In this document: piece after piece, positions 9,863 through 34,719 of the stretch
Layout of the letters: each line of letters starts with the position of its first letter
Position numbering within the stretch: the stretch's first letter is position 1
Assembly: GCA_030550615.1 (NCBI GenBank)
Contig: JAUQPA010000014.1
Span: 1 to 34,719, forward strand
Reading direction: 5' to 3'
Source of the DNA: Thermoproteota archaeon
Lineage (GTDB): Archaea; Thermoproteota; Thermoprotei_A; Sulfolobales; Desulfurococcaceae
DNA: 34,719 bases
Notes under the pieces: model-generated
Seen by the model: the letters and a program-made list of their open reading frames with translations, nothing else
Told to the model about the DNA's origin: nothing
The model's database searches: none
Made by a program: the position numbers and the translations under genes

Positions 9863-9958
9863 GGGCCCGTCGCCTAGCCAGGATAGGGCGCCGGCCTTCT
9901 AAGCGCCGGCGGGTTCGAAGACAGCCGGAGGCCCCGGGTTCAAATCCCGGCGGGCCCG
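9863..9958 (+). tRNA. tRNA-Arg (TCT) with a 21-nt intron
   Basis: The gene is 96 nt long and gives a 75-nt mature tRNA with acceptor GGGCCCG/CGGGCCC and discriminator G. The anticodon stem is CCGGC/GCCGG and the spliced loop is CTTCTAA (anticodon TCT at 9898-9900). The intron at 9902-9922 sits at the canonical 37/38 site. The bulge-helix-bulge is good: CTTC (9896-9899) pairs with GAAG (9917-9920), with bulges TA^A and AC^A. The intron also carries a GCCGG copy (9905-9909) that could compete for the anticodon stem. CCA is not encoded. A near-identical partner gene lies at 33690-33785. Confidence 0.95.
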
Positions 9959-27943: not shown

Positions 27944-28045
27944 TGCCGCCGCCGGGATTTGAACCCGGGTTTCCCGCACCCACGGTGCCTAGGGTGTCAC
28001 GGGCTCGAGAGGCCCGCATACTTGACCGGGCTATACTACGGCGGC
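27944..28045 (-). tRNA. tRNA-Glu (CTC) with a 27-nt non-canonical intron at 45/46
   Basis: The gene is 102 nt and gives a 75-nt tRNA with acceptor GCCGCCG/CGGCGGC and discriminator A. The anticodon stem CGGGC/GCCCG holds loop CTCTCGA without insertion. The variable region is enlarged by 27 nt (27971-27997). A bulge-helix-bulge accounts for it: CCCG of the anticodon stem pairs with CGGG in the intron, bulges are TG^A and AA^A, and the intron hairpin is CACCC/GGGTG. Splicing restores the variable region TGAC and T stem CCGGG. It is a relaxed motif because the outer exon helix is nearly absent. Confidence 0.92.
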
Positions 28046-28085: not shown

Positions 28086-28805
28086 TTAATCGCGTGAATA
28101 GGTGTCCTGGCAATCGAGATCAACCGGTAGATCAGGGCTGTGTAGCAATATTGCCTCTTTGAACGGGTCTAGGTATACTCCCATAGCTTTGAATAAAACA
28201 CCTTTCGAGCGAGCTTCCTGCATTGTTCTACCTATGAGTTTATCTTCATTACAGTATAGTTTGAATCCTTTTGACCTAGGTATCCCAGCTACGAATACTA
28301 CTATTCCAACTCCTCCCCGCTCTACGTATTTTCCTAGTTCCCTAATTTGTCTTCTGCCTCTAGGTGTTGGAGCATCTGGGTAACCAGCATAGTTTCCAGG
28401 TAGATTCATAACCGCGCTTTTCAATTCAACTAGAACCAATTGACCCCCACATAAATACGCGAAATCTATTGTCTCCGATGATAGCTTGTAGTTCCTCTTG
28501 AATAATCGGCAGTCTTTAAGCCAATTGAGTAATCTATTTCTTTGTGCAATTAGAAATGCTTGTTCTTGGAGCCTGGTATCTATAAGTGAAGCGTAATCAC
28601 CACTCTCTACTCCTATGATCCTGTATTTTAATTTACCATTTCTATTTTCAATACAATAACCTCGTTTTCCTTTCTCGAGAACACCCTTAAGTCTACCGGT
28701 GTTATTGATGTAAGCGGTATAGTGTTCACTGTTCACAAGTACTTTTACCGTGAATAAACTGGTTCTCTCAATAATAATGCATTCATGCAACCTAAGATCA
28801 TTCAT
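28086..28805 (-). CDS. sfsA: SfsA family protein (DNA-binding/nuclease-like)
   Basis: A 239-residue SfsA homologue. The N-terminal OB-like domain carries YINNTGRLKGVL and the C-terminal restriction-nuclease-like domain carries VELKSAVMNLPG and YPDAPTPRGRRQIREL. SfsA was named for sugar fermentation stimulation; its molecular role is unclear, and the fold suggests nucleic-acid binding or cleavage. I place the start at ATG 28805; the longer form from 28865 would add 20 residues outside the family and overlap the upstream membrane protein by 68 bases. From 28805 the overlap is only eight bases. Confidence 0.88.
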   Translation of the reverse strand: MNDLRLHECIIIERTSLFTVKVLVNSEHYTAYINNTGRLKGVLEKGKRGYCIENRNGKLKYRIIGVESGDYASLIDTRLQEQAFLIAQRNRLLNWLKDCRLFKRNYKLSSETIDFAYLCGGQLVLVELKSAVMNLPGNYAGYPDAPTPRGRRQIRELGKYVERGGVGIVVFVAGIPRSKGFKLYCNEDKLIGRTMQEARSKGVLFKAMGVYLDPFKEAILLHSPDLPVDLDCQDTYSRD

Positions 28806-29169
28806 TAACGGTATACTCTCCGCCAGTGGAAGAACACCTCTTAATAGCCGGTTTAATTCTATCACGCCATAGTATAAGAAGCAAAATTATTGATAGCTGT
28901 CCAAAATCAAGGTAGAAGGCGGAACCCGCGTCTGAATGCTCCACAATTATCAATGGATAAATAGTGATAACTACATATTGTGAGATACTAAATAGAACAG
29001 CGTAGTGTAAACCCCCGATCAACACTAGAATTGTTGATGTTATCAGCCTTATTTTCTTTGAGTCGAATAAAGCGTGTATAAACACCACTGTAATTAACAG
29101 TATTGCTAGTAGTCTACTGAGCAGAAAAACCCCTTCACTCAAACCAATGCTCATTGACCATTGCCTCAT
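28798..29169 (-). CDS. small membrane protein of unknown function
   Basis: A 123-residue protein with three or four hydrophobic helices (about residues 11-33, 41-60, 62-76 and 88-103) and a polar, basic C-terminal tail (RDRIKPAIKRC). I do not recognise the family; no signal peptide or catalytic motif stands out. It precedes sfsA with a short overlap, so the two are probably co-transcribed, but this gives no functional clue. Confidence 0.65.
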   Translation of the reverse strand: MRQWSMSIGLSEGVFLLSRLLAILLITVVFIHALFDSKKIRLITSTILVLIGGLHYAVLFSISQYVVITIYPLIIVEHSDAGSAFYLDFGQLSIILLLILWRDRIKPAIKRCSSTGGEYTVNE

Positions 29170-29416: not shown

Positions 29417-29752
29417 TTGACGATGTGGAAATGCGAGGTATGTGGATTAATATATGAAGGAACCGAGCCGCCGGAGAAGTGTCCTAAGTGTGGTGCTCCA
29501 AAAGAGAAATTCAGAAAATTAAGTGAAGACGAAGAAAAACTAGTCACAAGGTCCAGGTATTCAAACTACCTACATATGAAAGCGTATACTTTGCTACAAG
29601 AATTGCTCGAAGTAGCTGAGAAAGGTATACAGGATAATTTGGATCCAGGTTGCTTCAGGATCTTCACGGAGGAAAAGGGGTTTGCATTAATAACAATGCA
29701 GAAAATAAAAGCTGAACTCGAAGCACATATGAAGAAGCAGAAGTGGGGTTAG
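29417..29752 (+). CDS. rubredoxin-like domain protein with helical C-terminus
   Basis: A 111-residue protein. The N-terminal 30 residues form a rubredoxin-type iron knuckle pair (Cys6/Cys9 and Cys22/Cys25; CEVCG and CPKCGAP), as in the rubrerythrin tail domain. The remaining 80 residues are predominantly helical (MKAYTLLQELLEVAEKGIQDN) without a diiron EX2H set that I can see. Such proteins may shuttle electrons in peroxide or superoxide defence of anaerobes; the exact partner is unknown. TTG 29417 is favoured over ATG 29423 by ribosome-site spacing. A T-run follows the stop at 29776-29780. Confidence 0.75.
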   Translation: MTMWKCEVCGLIYEGTEPPEKCPKCGAPKEKFRKLSEDEEKLVTRSRYSNYLHMKAYTLLQELLEVAEKGIQDNLDPGCFRIFTEEKGFALITMQKIKAELEAHMKKQKWG

Positions 29753-29930: not shown

Positions 29931-32900
29931 TTATTGCTTTACAAGTTCATTTAAAGCAAGGTGGGCTATGTAGAGCATTTTTGATTTCTCCTCGAGGTAT
30001 TTCAATATTGATTCCTTCTCTTTATCCAGGATCTTCCTGTGCTCTCCTATTTTCCTGAACACGTTGGATATAATTGCATAGTTCACGGAAGGCATTAAAC
30101 CTAGAGCTGAGGCTACTTCATCGATGCTCAGAGCTTTAACTCCGTATTTATCTATTAATACTGAAGCATCTATTACAGCATCCCTATTGTTCTCCAGGAG
30201 AGAGATAAGTCTCCTCAGATTAGCTTGCTTCAATTGCATGAGGGTAACTTCTCTGTTCTCCACGAGCAACTTATACTCCTCGTAGAAAACCTTATCTATA
30301 ATCAAATTCTCGAGTTCTAGCAGGGATTGTGGTGGTTTAATTAAAGGCACTGGGGGATACAAGTCGACTGATCCTTGGAACTTTTCGCCATCGAAGAAGC
30401 CGTGTGCCGTGATCAGAGTTGGCGAAAGAGATTCCTCATCTATTACTTCACTCACGATAACATATGATAATATCCTTAATGCTGGACTAGGACGAGGAAT
30501 ATATAATTCCTTACCGTGAATCAACGCCTTGATTTTATCACGAGCTAGTATGTAATCAATAGCTCTTATTGCATATGTTTTCACGAGATCCCAGTTGAAT
30601 TCAATTGTCACTAAAGTAGAGTACGCTATATCATCTACCTCGGAGATCAGAATCCTATCGAGGTCGCTTGGAGAATGTTGCTCCACAATTCTCCTTATAT
30701 TTAACCAATCCAAGTTCTCTATGATCCCAGCTGCTTCCGGTTCATGTAGTGAGAAATACTTGTACTCGCCGAGTTTAACTACATCGTAGAGTATTGTGTA
30801 TAATGGTATTCCAAGATACCGTCTTAGTAGAACAACTAGGTATGATAGAGCAAGTCTCAGTAGCTCCGGGTTTTCCCTCGGATCAATAGAGTATGTATAT
30901 CCATATGTGAAATCCCGGTATTCGCCGCCAGTGGGCGTTGGAACGTATATTGTTCTTTTATCGTAGTAGACAACTGGTTCACCTCTTGTAAACATATACT
31001 TGGGTTTTTCGGATCGAATTGTCCAAATACACCTCTCGGGTATTTTAATGTATTTGCCGAAGCCGTTTCTAGGAGTATATACGATGCAGAGCTCCTCGCT
31101 CGTAATTCTACCTGAGAGCAGATCTCGTATTATACTCGGTGTTTCGTTCCATTTCAATTTAATATATCTATATTCCTCGAGGGCCTGCGCTAATGCATCA
31201 TTAGCTCTAAAGTCAATGTCACGTATCCTTTTCTCAACAACGCTTCTTACATATCTAGTTGATTTCCCATAGTTAAGTGCTGTGACAATAGCTTCTTCGC
31301 CATAGTCTATGCACCCGGGTTGAAACTTCTCCACGAGGTCAACGTGTCCAATGGGTTCTAGTGGGATGAGAGCTCCTTCTTTCTCCAGGTATCTTTTAAT
31401 ACCGTATGGTGGAGCATACTCGTAGAAGTTTATTTTTTCAAATAAATCCCGGAGCATTTTTTCATTTACCTTATTCTCGGATGTTAAAACACCTGCGCTT
31501 CTGAGGGCATCGATCTCCATGTTGTTTAGTTCCATTTTGAACCATGGGGATTTGAGTTTAATTACACCTGTGAATAAGTACATGTACAAGTTTCTCGGGT
31601 TAACGAGTGTTTTCTCTAATCCAAGATTAAGCCAGGAGTTGAAGGTGCTTAACCCGCTGCTTAATAGTTCCTTATCCCACCTTGAATAAGGAACAATAAT
31701 TGTCTCAGAAAACCCTAGTTCCCTACGTCTTCCTTTTCGCCCCTCTCGTTGATAATATTCTCTAACGTCGTCAGGTAAACCTAGGTGAATCACTCTAGCT
31801 ACAACCCCTATGTCTATCCCCTGGGAGAGAGTGCGAGGAGACACTATGACCTTTACTTCTCCTTTTCTCGCTTTTTCCTCTATTTCCTCCCTGGTTTTCT
31901 TTGGAACAAGATGGTGGTGTGCTGCTATAGGTGCTTTTTCACCGTATTTCATCTTTAGTGATTTAACAAGTTCCTCTGCTGATCCTATGCTCCTGGTGAA
32001 CACTAGGGTTACATATTCATCATTGAAATACTCTGAGATGAGTTCATGTGGATCAATACTTATACTTGGTATACTGTATCCAAGACCTTCAAGAATGGAG
32101 GTTACCTTGTATGCTTGTTTCTTGAATTCGTCGAAGTTGTGAATAATACTTGTGAACGAATTTAGCTCAGGGTGTTTGCTAACTATAGTGTTCCACTGAT
32201 TGCGGATACTCTGCCAAATTAACTCAAGGTTTTTACCGAGCACTATGTAAGTGTGGTTTTCGACTTTGAAGGGTTCTCCTTCTATTATTCTACACTCCCC
32301 GCTCGTTGTTTCCCTAATGAAATGGCACAGATCACCTGGATTAGCGATGCCTGCTGATAATATGGCGACTTGGAGTTTTTTCTCGTTAATACTCGAGAGC
32401 AGGTAGATCATTGCCAGTAACAAAGCTAAGCTACGAGGTCCATAGAAATCCAATTCATCTACTACTAATAAGTCAAGCTTACTGTATATGGGTGCTAAGT
32501 AAGCGGCCTCCTTCTTCACGAAGAACTTCTTTAAATCATGTAGTAGGAAAGCTGGATTAGTTATTATTAAATTAGAGGAAGCAATGCTTAGTCTAAGAGT
32601 AGTTAAATTATTCTTCTTCAAGTGTTCTTCTTTTCTAACACTATCTAGTTGCACTGGTTTTTTACCTATTAAACCCAAGTATTTTTCGAGGCGTTTGATT
32701 TGATCATTGGCTAATGCTAAAGTAGGGTATAGAGCTAAAACGTGGAAATCACTTCGCTTTTTAACTTCATCGAGAAAATATAGCGCCCATGCCTCTGTTT
32801 TACCACTACCTGTTCCCGCTCTCAGAACAATACTTAATCCTTTTCCTAAAGCTGAGTAAGCTTCATACTGGTGTTTGTAGAGTTTAAGATCACCCAGTTC

Positions 32901-33047
32901 TATGGAGGAGAACTCCGGGACTATATCCTTGAATCTTAATTCAATGTACTGTGGTTCAGATGAAGGTGCAACGATTTTTATATAGCTATAACCCTTACTT
33001 GCTAAAATGGCTTCACTATAGATTCTGCTCATATGGTAGCCCGACAC
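29931..33047 (-). CDS. large superfamily 2 helicase with atypical motifs (COG1205-like)
   Basis: A 1038-residue putative DNA/RNA helicase. Visible SF2 motifs: Q-like LYKHQYEA, I AGTGSGKT (77-84), Ia PTLALANDQ (108-116), II DELD (197-200), III SAG (231-233), IV LVFTRS (348-353), V SPRTLSQGIDIG (403-414) and VI QREGRKGRR (433-441). The layout resembles the Hrq1/MrfA (YprA) branch. A C-terminal segment EPEAAGIIENLDW recalls the DUF1998/MZB region, but its four-Cys metal site is not present. Start is GTG 33047 or ATG 33032. Substrate unknown; it stands alone. Confidence 0.8.
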   Translation of the reverse strand: MSGYHMSRIYSEAILASKGYSYIKIVAPSSEPQYIELRFKDIVPEFSSIELGDLKLYKHQYEAYSALGKGLSIVLRAGTGSGKTEAWALYFLDEVKKRSDFHVLALYPTLALANDQIKRLEKYLGLIGKKPVQLDSVRKEEHLKKNNLTTLRLSIASSNLIITNPAFLLHDLKKFFVKKEAAYLAPIYSKLDLLVVDELDFYGPRSLALLLAMIYLLSSINEKKLQVAILSAGIANPGDLCHFIRETTSGECRIIEGEPFKVENHTYIVLGKNLELIWQSIRNQWNTIVSKHPELNSFTSIIHNFDEFKKQAYKVTSILEGLGYSIPSISIDPHELISEYFNDEYVTLVFTRSIGSAEELVKSLKMKYGEKAPIAAHHHLVPKKTREEIEEKARKGEVKVIVSPRTLSQGIDIGVVARVIHLGLPDDVREYYQREGRKGRRRELGFSETIIVPYSRWDKELLSSGLSTFNSWLNLGLEKTLVNPRNLYMYLFTGVIKLKSPWFKMELNNMEIDALRSAGVLTSENKVNEKMLRDLFEKINFYEYAPPYGIKRYLEKEGALIPLEPIGHVDLVEKFQPGCIDYGEEAIVTALNYGKSTRYVRSVVEKRIRDIDFRANDALAQALEEYRYIKLKWNETPSIIRDLLSGRITSEELCIVYTPRNGFGKYIKIPERCIWTIRSEKPKYMFTRGEPVVYYDKRTIYVPTPTGGEYRDFTYGYTYSIDPRENPELLRLALSYLVVLLRRYLGIPLYTILYDVVKLGEYKYFSLHEPEAAGIIENLDWLNIRRIVEQHSPSDLDRILISEVDDIAYSTLVTIEFNWDLVKTYAIRAIDYILARDKIKALIHGKELYIPRPSPALRILSYVIVSEVIDEESLSPTLITAHGFFDGEKFQGSVDLYPPVPLIKPPQSLLELENLIIDKVFYEEYKLLVENREVTLMQLKQANLRRLISLLENNRDAVIDASVLIDKYGVKALSIDEVASALGLMPSVNYAIISNVFRKIGEHRKILDKEKESILKYLEEKSKMLYIAHLALNELVKQ

Positions 33048-33689: not shown

Positions 33690-33785
33690 CGGGCCCGCCG
33701 GGATTTGAACCCGGGGCCTCCGGCTGTCTTCGAACCCGCCGGCGCTTAGGAGGCCGGCGCCCTATCCTGGCTAGGCGACGGGCCC
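33690..33785 (-). tRNA. tRNA-Arg (CCT) with a 21-nt intron
   Basis: A 96-nt gene, mature length 75 nt, identical over its full length, intron included, to the tRNA-Arg(TCT) gene at 9863-9958 apart from position 34: anticodon CCT (33748-33750) instead of TCT. The intron is 33726-33746 at the canonical 37/38 site. Because base 34 takes part in the central helix of the bulge-helix-bulge (CTCC with GAAG), the change leaves a C-A mismatch. The discriminator is G and CCA is not encoded. Confidence 0.95.
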
Positions 33786-33893: not shown

Positions 33894-34719
33894 TTACGTC
33901 AGTAACATAGCTATGGTGTATGAGAACACTGCTAGTAGATAAGCTGTAGTAAGCATTAATACAAGAGATGTTAGAGCGTATTTTAAACTCCTAGTTTCAC
34001 TATATATCGCTATAATCGTGGGAGCGCATGGAATATAGAGAGCAATGAACAGTGATAACGCCACCGCGGAGGGTGTTGATAAACCAATGTACCTAAACGC
34101 CTCCTCGAATGATAATGCTCTCGTTGTTGTAATTATTGCGCTGATCACTAGTTCCTTGGCTAAAAAGCCCAATATAACTGCATAAGCAACTATCCACGCG
34201 TTTTCACCAGTTACTCCAATGGGGTTCAGAAATGGTGCAATGCTTCTAGAGAATACTGCTATAATGCTTTCCTCGACGTTATCTGTATATGCTCCATGAA
34301 TAGTTAAGTGTTGTAATCCCCACGAAATTATGCTTACGAGAAAGATCACTGTGCCCGCTTTGATCAAGAAGTGTTTTAATTGAAACCACGTGAACCACCA
34401 AATTACGCGGAGGTATGGTCTATGAAGAGGCGGGACTTCTAGTAATAGCTCGATTTCAACACTCCTTTTTCTTTCGAAAAACACGTGTATAATATAGCTT
34501 AATGCTAGGAAAACCGAGAAAGCAACTAGGTAAACAAACGGCACGAGAACTGATCCAGCGAACCCTCCTAGCGCTGTAGCAATCGCTAACAACACAATCA
34601 GTCTTGCTTGGCACGGTATGAATGGAGTTAATAGAATTAATTTCAATCTCTCAAAGTAATTAGGGGATGCACGAGTGGACATCACGCCGGGTACATTGCA
34701 ACCCAGGGATAGTGTAATA
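33894..34719 (-). CDS. feoB: ferrous iron transporter FeoB, C-terminal membrane part (cut by window edge)
   Basis: The last 274 or so residues of FeoB, the GTPase-linked Fe2+ uptake permease of the cytoplasmic membrane; the frame is open to the right edge. The conserved GCNVPGVMSTRA lies just inside the edge (about 34676-34707), followed by LTPFIPCQARLIVLL, LEVPPLHRPYLR and KAGTVIFLVSIISW, typical for the second half with its Gate domains. Five to seven membrane helices are visible. The N-terminal G domain is outside the window. Taking ATG 34685 as the start would cut the family motif, so it is not the true start. Confidence 0.9.
   Translation of the reverse strand, partial: ITLSLGCNVPGVMSTRASPNYFERLKLILLTPFIPCQARLIVLLAIATALGGFAGSVLVPFVYLVAFSVFLALSYIIHVFFERKRSVEIELLLEVPPLHRPYLRVIWWFTWFQLKHFLIKAGTVIFLVSIISWGLQHLTIHGAYTDNVEESIIAVFSRSIAPFLNPIGVTGENAWIVAYAVILGFLAKELVISAIITTTRALSFEEAFRYIGLSTPSAVALSLFIALYIPCAPTIIAIYSETRSLKYALTSLVLMLTTAYLLAVFSYTIAMLLT

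Follow-up and report, generated by a model that had tools for sequence, protein, structure and literature searches.

The window analysed here, a stretch of 34,719 nucleotides that forms one whole contig (contig 49) of a 1.29-Mb genome, carries a helicase gene (29931..33047, minus strand) whose product belongs to an uncharacterised archaeal family of superfamily 2 (SF2) that is not assignable to a named family. The family is a sound new one, built like the DNA helicase MrfA/YprA, and not a mechanistic oddity. That its members share the MrfA/YprA plan and serve as stand-alone DNA repair enzymes, 3'-5' helicases with a canopy that lacks zinc, is a reading we hold with moderate confidence. An unnamed, widespread archaeal helicase family is hereby placed beside MrfA/YprA. 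It offers a repair-helicase candidate for archaea in which no gene of the MrfA/SftH type was found, and it raises the question of whether the zinc cluster that marks the MrfA/YprA family is needed for the mechanism. No description of the family and no experiment on any member was found in the largely open-access literature searched. A preliminary annotation made from the letters of the window alone (the sequence-only reading) had placed the protein among SF2 helicases outside any named family, and profile, domain and tree comparisons bear this out.

The large ORF with the motifs DELD, SAG and QREGRKGRR on which that annotation rested is real. It encodes 1038 residues from a GTG start, and its full-length homologues range from 77% down to 27% identity. 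Since several of the closest homologues begin at the ATG of codon 6 (base 33032), translation probably starts there, giving a protein of 1033 residues; numbering below follows the longer form, and all features of the gene lie on the minus strand. Pfam searches returned DEAD (residues 58–235) and Helicase_C (residues 342–441) together with two overlapping sub-threshold helicase matches. Pfam, alignment and profile alignment together show an SF2 core in which two RecA domains carry motifs I–VI. RecA1 (residues 53–262; 32262..32891) and RecA2 (residues 336–475; 31623..32042), both with putative limits, include the DEAD and Helicase_C matches, respectively. Motif I, GTGSGKT (residues 78–84; 32796..32816), was located by alignment. 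The Pfam search gave nothing in the last ~600 residues, in agreement with the earlier remark that the C-terminal 600 residues are mostly unassigned.

The distribution of the family was determined with a profile of residues 470–835, a region beyond the helicase motifs. The profile matched 101 of 229 genomes of the window's class and 106 of 398 genomes sampled from the phylum; most members are ~1030–1060 residues long. The family has so far been found only in crenarchaea and other members of the phylum, and an exact-pattern scan, the one search that reached chromosomes beyond the phylum, gave eight loci, all archaeal by title. Conservation was measured on 78 aligned proteins of at least 850 residues, comprising 58 rows and 20 phylum members hand-picked from the profile matches. 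The 58-row alignment left out homologues shorter than 850 residues (broken, partial or divergent, for example L088, L097, L098, L099 and L100) and two duplicate stretches (L035 and L038). One relative, at 9506-13825 of L095, is extended at its C-terminus by several hundred residues to a total of 1439; Pfam found nothing in it beyond the helicase core. A broken second copy, interrupted by in-frame stops, lies at ~9000–10400 of L088; the same genome encodes a copy of 1046 residues as well.

Motif II, DELD (residues 197–200; 32448..32459), has aspartate at its fourth position in all 78 aligned proteins (six of them DDxD) and is never DEAD, and motif VI (residues 433–441; 31725..31751, located by alignment) is exactly QREGRKGRR in 67. 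These two motifs, previously listed as unusual, are therefore standard for the family. The third, the motif III sequence SAG (residues 231–233; 32349..32357), is lineage-specific, occurring in six of the 78 proteins, all from the window's genus. Elsewhere motif III reads TAT (48 proteins), SAT (11) or other sequences (13), and its third residue is T in 66 proteins, G in 6, M in 4 and A in 2.

By both profile and fold, the nearest solved structure is MrfA/YprA. The family profile matched MrfA first in the PDB (E = 1.3e-46), followed by Lhr (1.9e-24) and a DEAD/DEAH helicase of 2108 residues (2.3e-22), and a profile-profile comparison with 18 archaeal MrfA proteins covered residues 12–593 (E = 3.4e-57). 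Beyond the RecA domains, this alignment pairs a winged-helix-like linker region (residues 478–545; 31413..31616; name and limits putative) with the same region of MrfA, strongly within the whole and weakly when aligned alone (probability 12.7%). The following beta-rich region (residues 546–600; 31248..31412) pairs with the MrfA OB-fold region, QPGCIDY facing YPGAIYF; its putative OB assignment is carried over from MrfA, and the profile alignment ends at residue 593 in an OB/connector region where the models are of low confidence. An AlphaFold model of the whole protein had a mean pLDDT of 58.0, with good stretches up to about residue 400 and at about 490–540. With this overall poor model, MrfA chains ranked 1–4 in Foldseek (5.6e-22 to 4.1e-14; best other match 1.0e-13), and VIA gave MrfA a Z score of 21.1 (469 residues aligned) against 18.9 for Lhr, a lead of only ~2 Z units. 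Single-sequence NCBIfam scores did not separate the helicase families. A ligase-associated model, which we take to be Lhr-type, scored 6.3e-26, the ATP-dependent helicase model PRK13767 scored 3e-21, and TIGR03817, presumably MrfA-like, was slightly below the others at 1.1e-20.

The window protein is not MrfA itself, because the genome carries a separate MZB helicase; the only MZB match in the genome is that helicase, on contig 19. A core tree of 44 proteins, built without DrmA, DpdJ or DruE rows, set 22 family members apart from 15 MrfA/YprA-type, 4 ARMADA-like and 3 Lhr-type proteins by a branch with an SH-aLRT of 100 and a stem of 1.68; it is unrooted, was made by a quick method and has some long branches. 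A careful tree of 31 rows gave the same split of the family from the others. The labels ARMADA-like and YprA-type are those of this analysis, assigned from neighbouring genes and PMC12458937; the records themselves mostly read DEAD/DEAH box helicase.

The sequence-only reading had noted the absence of a zinc cluster, which is borne out: cysteines occur only at residues 241, 252, 579, 654 and 673, with none after 673, and the MZB/DUF1998 domain (PF09369), with its four zinc-binding cysteines, had no match in the window helicase. Across the family, a CxxC, CxC or CC pattern follows the column of residue 700 in three of 78 members, and four members (L089, L095, L168 and L177) have at least four scattered cysteines after that column, outside any such pattern. 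Loss of the cluster is not unheard of, since the same four cysteines are reported lost in Dpd helicases in PMC12458937. Residues 470–835 of 51 members gave scattered weak matches only (best 0.0093 in Pfam and 0.037 in NCBIfam).

The same reading had described a block recalling DUF1998, a suggestion that fold comparison favours weakly and the sequence tests do not. Residues 478–850, folded alone from seven sequences, gave an AlphaFold model that was again poor as a whole (mean pLDDT 53.5). Of the 12 ten-residue blocks spanning 718–837, however, 11 had values of 65–91 and one had 55. For residues ~709–831 of this model (709–831; 30555..30923), the DUF1998 end of MrfA (residues 571–749) came top among 998 chains (Z 7.2, rmsd 3.4, 115 residues aligned), formally tied with unrelated folds such as AlbEF and M16 peptidases (6.6 and less) and below the guide value of Z 8. 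The stretch is colinear with the MrfA order. Foldseek gave no match for the C-terminal model at E ≤ 0.001, hhalign of the C-terminal parts stayed under 1% probability, and the C-terminal profile alignment fell short of significance, its score being reached in 18 of 200 column shuffles. In that non-significant alignment, the glutamate E769 of HEPEAAG (30741..30743), invariant in 78/78 members, is paired with the invariant D680 of YD..GG.G in the MrfA of the same genome. We read residues ~709–831 as a probable cysteine-free DUF1998 domain. The remaining C-terminal extension (residues 835–1038; 29934..30545) is poorly conserved by alignment, predicted to be mainly helical, and has no assignment.

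The plan proposed for the window helicase starts with a pair of RecA domains, continues through a winged-helix-like linker into an OB-like region, and probably includes a DUF1998-like canopy. Single-stranded DNA would be bound across RecA1 and RecA2, along which the enzyme would walk 3' to 5' with ATP hydrolysis, and by analogy it may unwind duplexes in an ATP-dependent manner. A canopy formed by the OB region, connector and DUF1998-like module would close over the strand as in MrfA, and would hold in the absence of the four zinc-binding cysteines, with E769 placed where MrfA may have the aspartate of YD..GG.G. PMC12458937 presents MrfA and SftH as 3'-5' DNA helicases and describes the OB-connector-DUF1998 canopy of MrfA, and PMC10003305 reports that deletion of sftH in Sulfolobus acidocaldarius causes sensitivity to H2O2 and mild sensitivity to cisplatin. 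Because no conserved operon partner was found, and in view of this deletion phenotype, stand-alone DNA repair would be the most likely role and is our best guess.

The helicase gene lies on an ordinary chromosome. It had been described as sitting between remnants of other genes in accessory DNA; its neighbours are instead intact and partly syntenic with those of relatives. Downstream, a rubrerythrin-like ORF (29417-29752) and SfsA (28086-28865) both have their Pfam domains, and these two and a small membrane ORF (28798-29169) recur together in relatives. Upstream, a piece of FeoB (33894-34685) runs past the contig end, and relatives have a FeoB of 692–695 residues at that place. Six distinct places were compared within the window's genus: FeoB lies upstream in four of them, either adjacent or separated by a single ORF, and five have the small membrane ORF and SfsA on the downstream side. 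No full-length helicase match was found on 72,556 plasmids, where eight records matched part of the core (7–18% of the query), and there was no match at all in 50,697 phage records, so mobile or accessory DNA was rejected as a setting. Two short patterns searched against viral contigs gave seven matches, with no relative behind them. No gene cluster within three genes of the helicase was shared by more than three of 11 families, and the one shared by three was discarded, since single linkage had joined dissimilar radical-SAM proteins in it.

Several features of the surrounding DNA were recorded in passing. The small membrane ORF (minus strand) overlaps the start of SfsA, and its cluster was found in 18 of 65 stretches (two pairs of which are the same place), usually near the helicase; its relative in L043 had no Pfam match. 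The rubrerythrin-like ORF (plus strand) encodes 111 residues with a rubredoxin-like N-terminus (RUBY_RBDX) and a remainder that has no assignment. In the window and in L035 it separates the helicase from the SfsA pair, but in L045 it lies on the opposite side of the helicase. A tRNA gene is located upstream of the helicase at 33690-33785. Insertion targeted to a tRNA was dropped as an explanation because, by inspection, a tRNA lies no more than 600 bases from the gene in only five of 52 relative stretches. ARAGORN called this tRNA (minus strand) and another at 9863-9958 (plus strand) tRNA-Pyl (CTA). Judged by sequence, both resemble tRNA-Arg genes with introns (CCT and TCT, respectively), and in L036 and L043 a tRNA close to the helicase was called tRNA-Arg (CCT). 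Further tRNA matches at 1027-1152 and 27944-28045 (both minus strand) were returned by Rfam and not by ARAGORN, perhaps owing to introns.

The features of the core allow other readings. The sequence-only reading had suggested that the changed motif III may alter the coupling of ATP hydrolysis to unwinding, from which it would follow that the protein is a degenerate relative with impaired coupling. SAG does replace S/TAT in six of 78 members, and in Thermococcus aLhr2 the motif III substitution T215A leaves only residual ATPase activity, according to PMC8301817. A special change in coupling is nevertheless not needed, as other lineages also tolerate substitutions at the third position of motif III; the reading frame is intact, the remaining motifs are kept, and SAG is common to five other proteins of the genus that are 64–77% identical to the window helicase, so the motif is kept and not decaying. 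We regard degeneration as very improbable. Motif II, with DExD in place of DExH, could instead point to an RNA or RNA-DNA helicase whose function is less like that of MrfA than that of archaeal Lhr2 or DEAD-box proteins. Lhr is the next-best fold match, and the aLhr2 of Thermococcus unwinds RNA-containing duplexes, as PMC8301817 reports. An RNA role is unlikely, however, given that MrfA is clearly ahead of Lhr by profile and that the helicase has no WH_Lhr domain (PF19306). In the window's genome WH_Lhr matched only two other genes, located on contigs 47 and 46. Among 16 further carriers none had a match at the place of the helicase gene; carriers have Lhr genes elsewhere, and identity with Lhr or aLhr3 was ruled out by these searches.

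A role in anti-virus defence, alone or with unlinked partners, as an effector related to the BrxH, DISARM, Dpd or Druantia helicases, would account for the patchy presence of the gene, which is absent from 10 of the 40 genomes in its taxonomic family and from 4 of the 23 more complete ones. In PADLOC, the core matches helicase models, SngC at 3.2e-25 and BrxH at 7.3e-25, and the cysteine loss reported for Dpd helicases parallels that seen here. Short or split homologues also stand at the end of operon-like arrays in L098 (4019-10644) and L100 (789-7660), which hold an ATPase weakly STAND NTPase-like (below Pfam cut-offs), proteins that have no assignment and a ~130-residue protein common to both, with a Cas3-like helicase in the L100 array; these arrays are a candidate defence cassette. 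The full-length members, in contrast, have within three genes no common partner genes of the kind that mark the DISARM, Dpd, Druantia and ARMADA systems. The helicase is present in all eight genomes of the genus, its C-terminal region (residues 470–835) had no PADLOC match in 51 members, and it is missing from the plasmid and phage records as a full-length protein. We consider defence decidedly unlikely and retain stand-alone repair as the preferred role.

The family might also be a deep sister of YprA with a zinc-less DUF1998 canopy that replaces MrfA/SftH in lineages without an MZB gene, which we regard as doubtful. In the 229 genomes of the class, 38 have both genes, 63 the window gene alone, 69 MZB alone and 59 neither; outside the window's own family the corresponding counts are 14, 57, 64 and 54. 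The high-quality subset comprised 121 genomes, with G007 (MZB only) left out. The hint of replacement comes from a few lineages: in families f4, f5, f6, f8 and f10 the window gene is present in 45 of 55 genomes and no MZB match exceeds the cut-off (G124 has a single weak one), whereas in f11, f12, f14 and f15 MZB is found in nine of 11 genomes and the window gene in none. Both genes share a genome in f1 (24 genomes), f3 (5) and f9 (9), and the same holds for 25 of the 64 carriers found outside the class. As a general rule replacement remains a suggestion, because of these 25 carriers and because many of the genomes are incomplete and their relatedness uncorrected.

Among known systems, Lhr proteins (aLhr1/2/3) resemble the window family in having an SF2 core followed by a winged helix (PMC8301817), and differ in the WH_Lhr match that the window helicase lacks. 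DpdJ, a Dpd-type YprA helicase also reported to lack the four-cysteine cluster (PMC12458937), is part of multi-gene defence clusters, and its match to the window helicase core is weak (1.9e-11). The ARMADA-like YprA helicases have a YprA-type core as in the window family; the four examined are plasmid proteins of 1,768-2,082 residues with a second helicase or methylase gene nearby, and in the core tree they fall with MrfA and not with the window family. The closest likeness is to MrfA/YprA/SftH (COG1205), represented by Bacillus subtilis MrfA (6znp) and by the 765-residue MZB helicase of the same genome: the order RecA1, RecA2, winged helix and OB-like region is the same over residues 12–593, the fold match is the best, and a possible DUF1998-like module follows in the same order. 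The 18 archaeal MZB-type proteins have DExH (H in 18/18, with SAT as motif III in 15), whereas the window family has DExD (78/78). The window family is further distinguished from MrfA by QREGRKGRR, by an extra stretch of roughly 45 residues between RecA1 and RecA2, by the absence of the cysteine cluster, by a C-terminal extension of ~200 residues and by its position in a separate clade.
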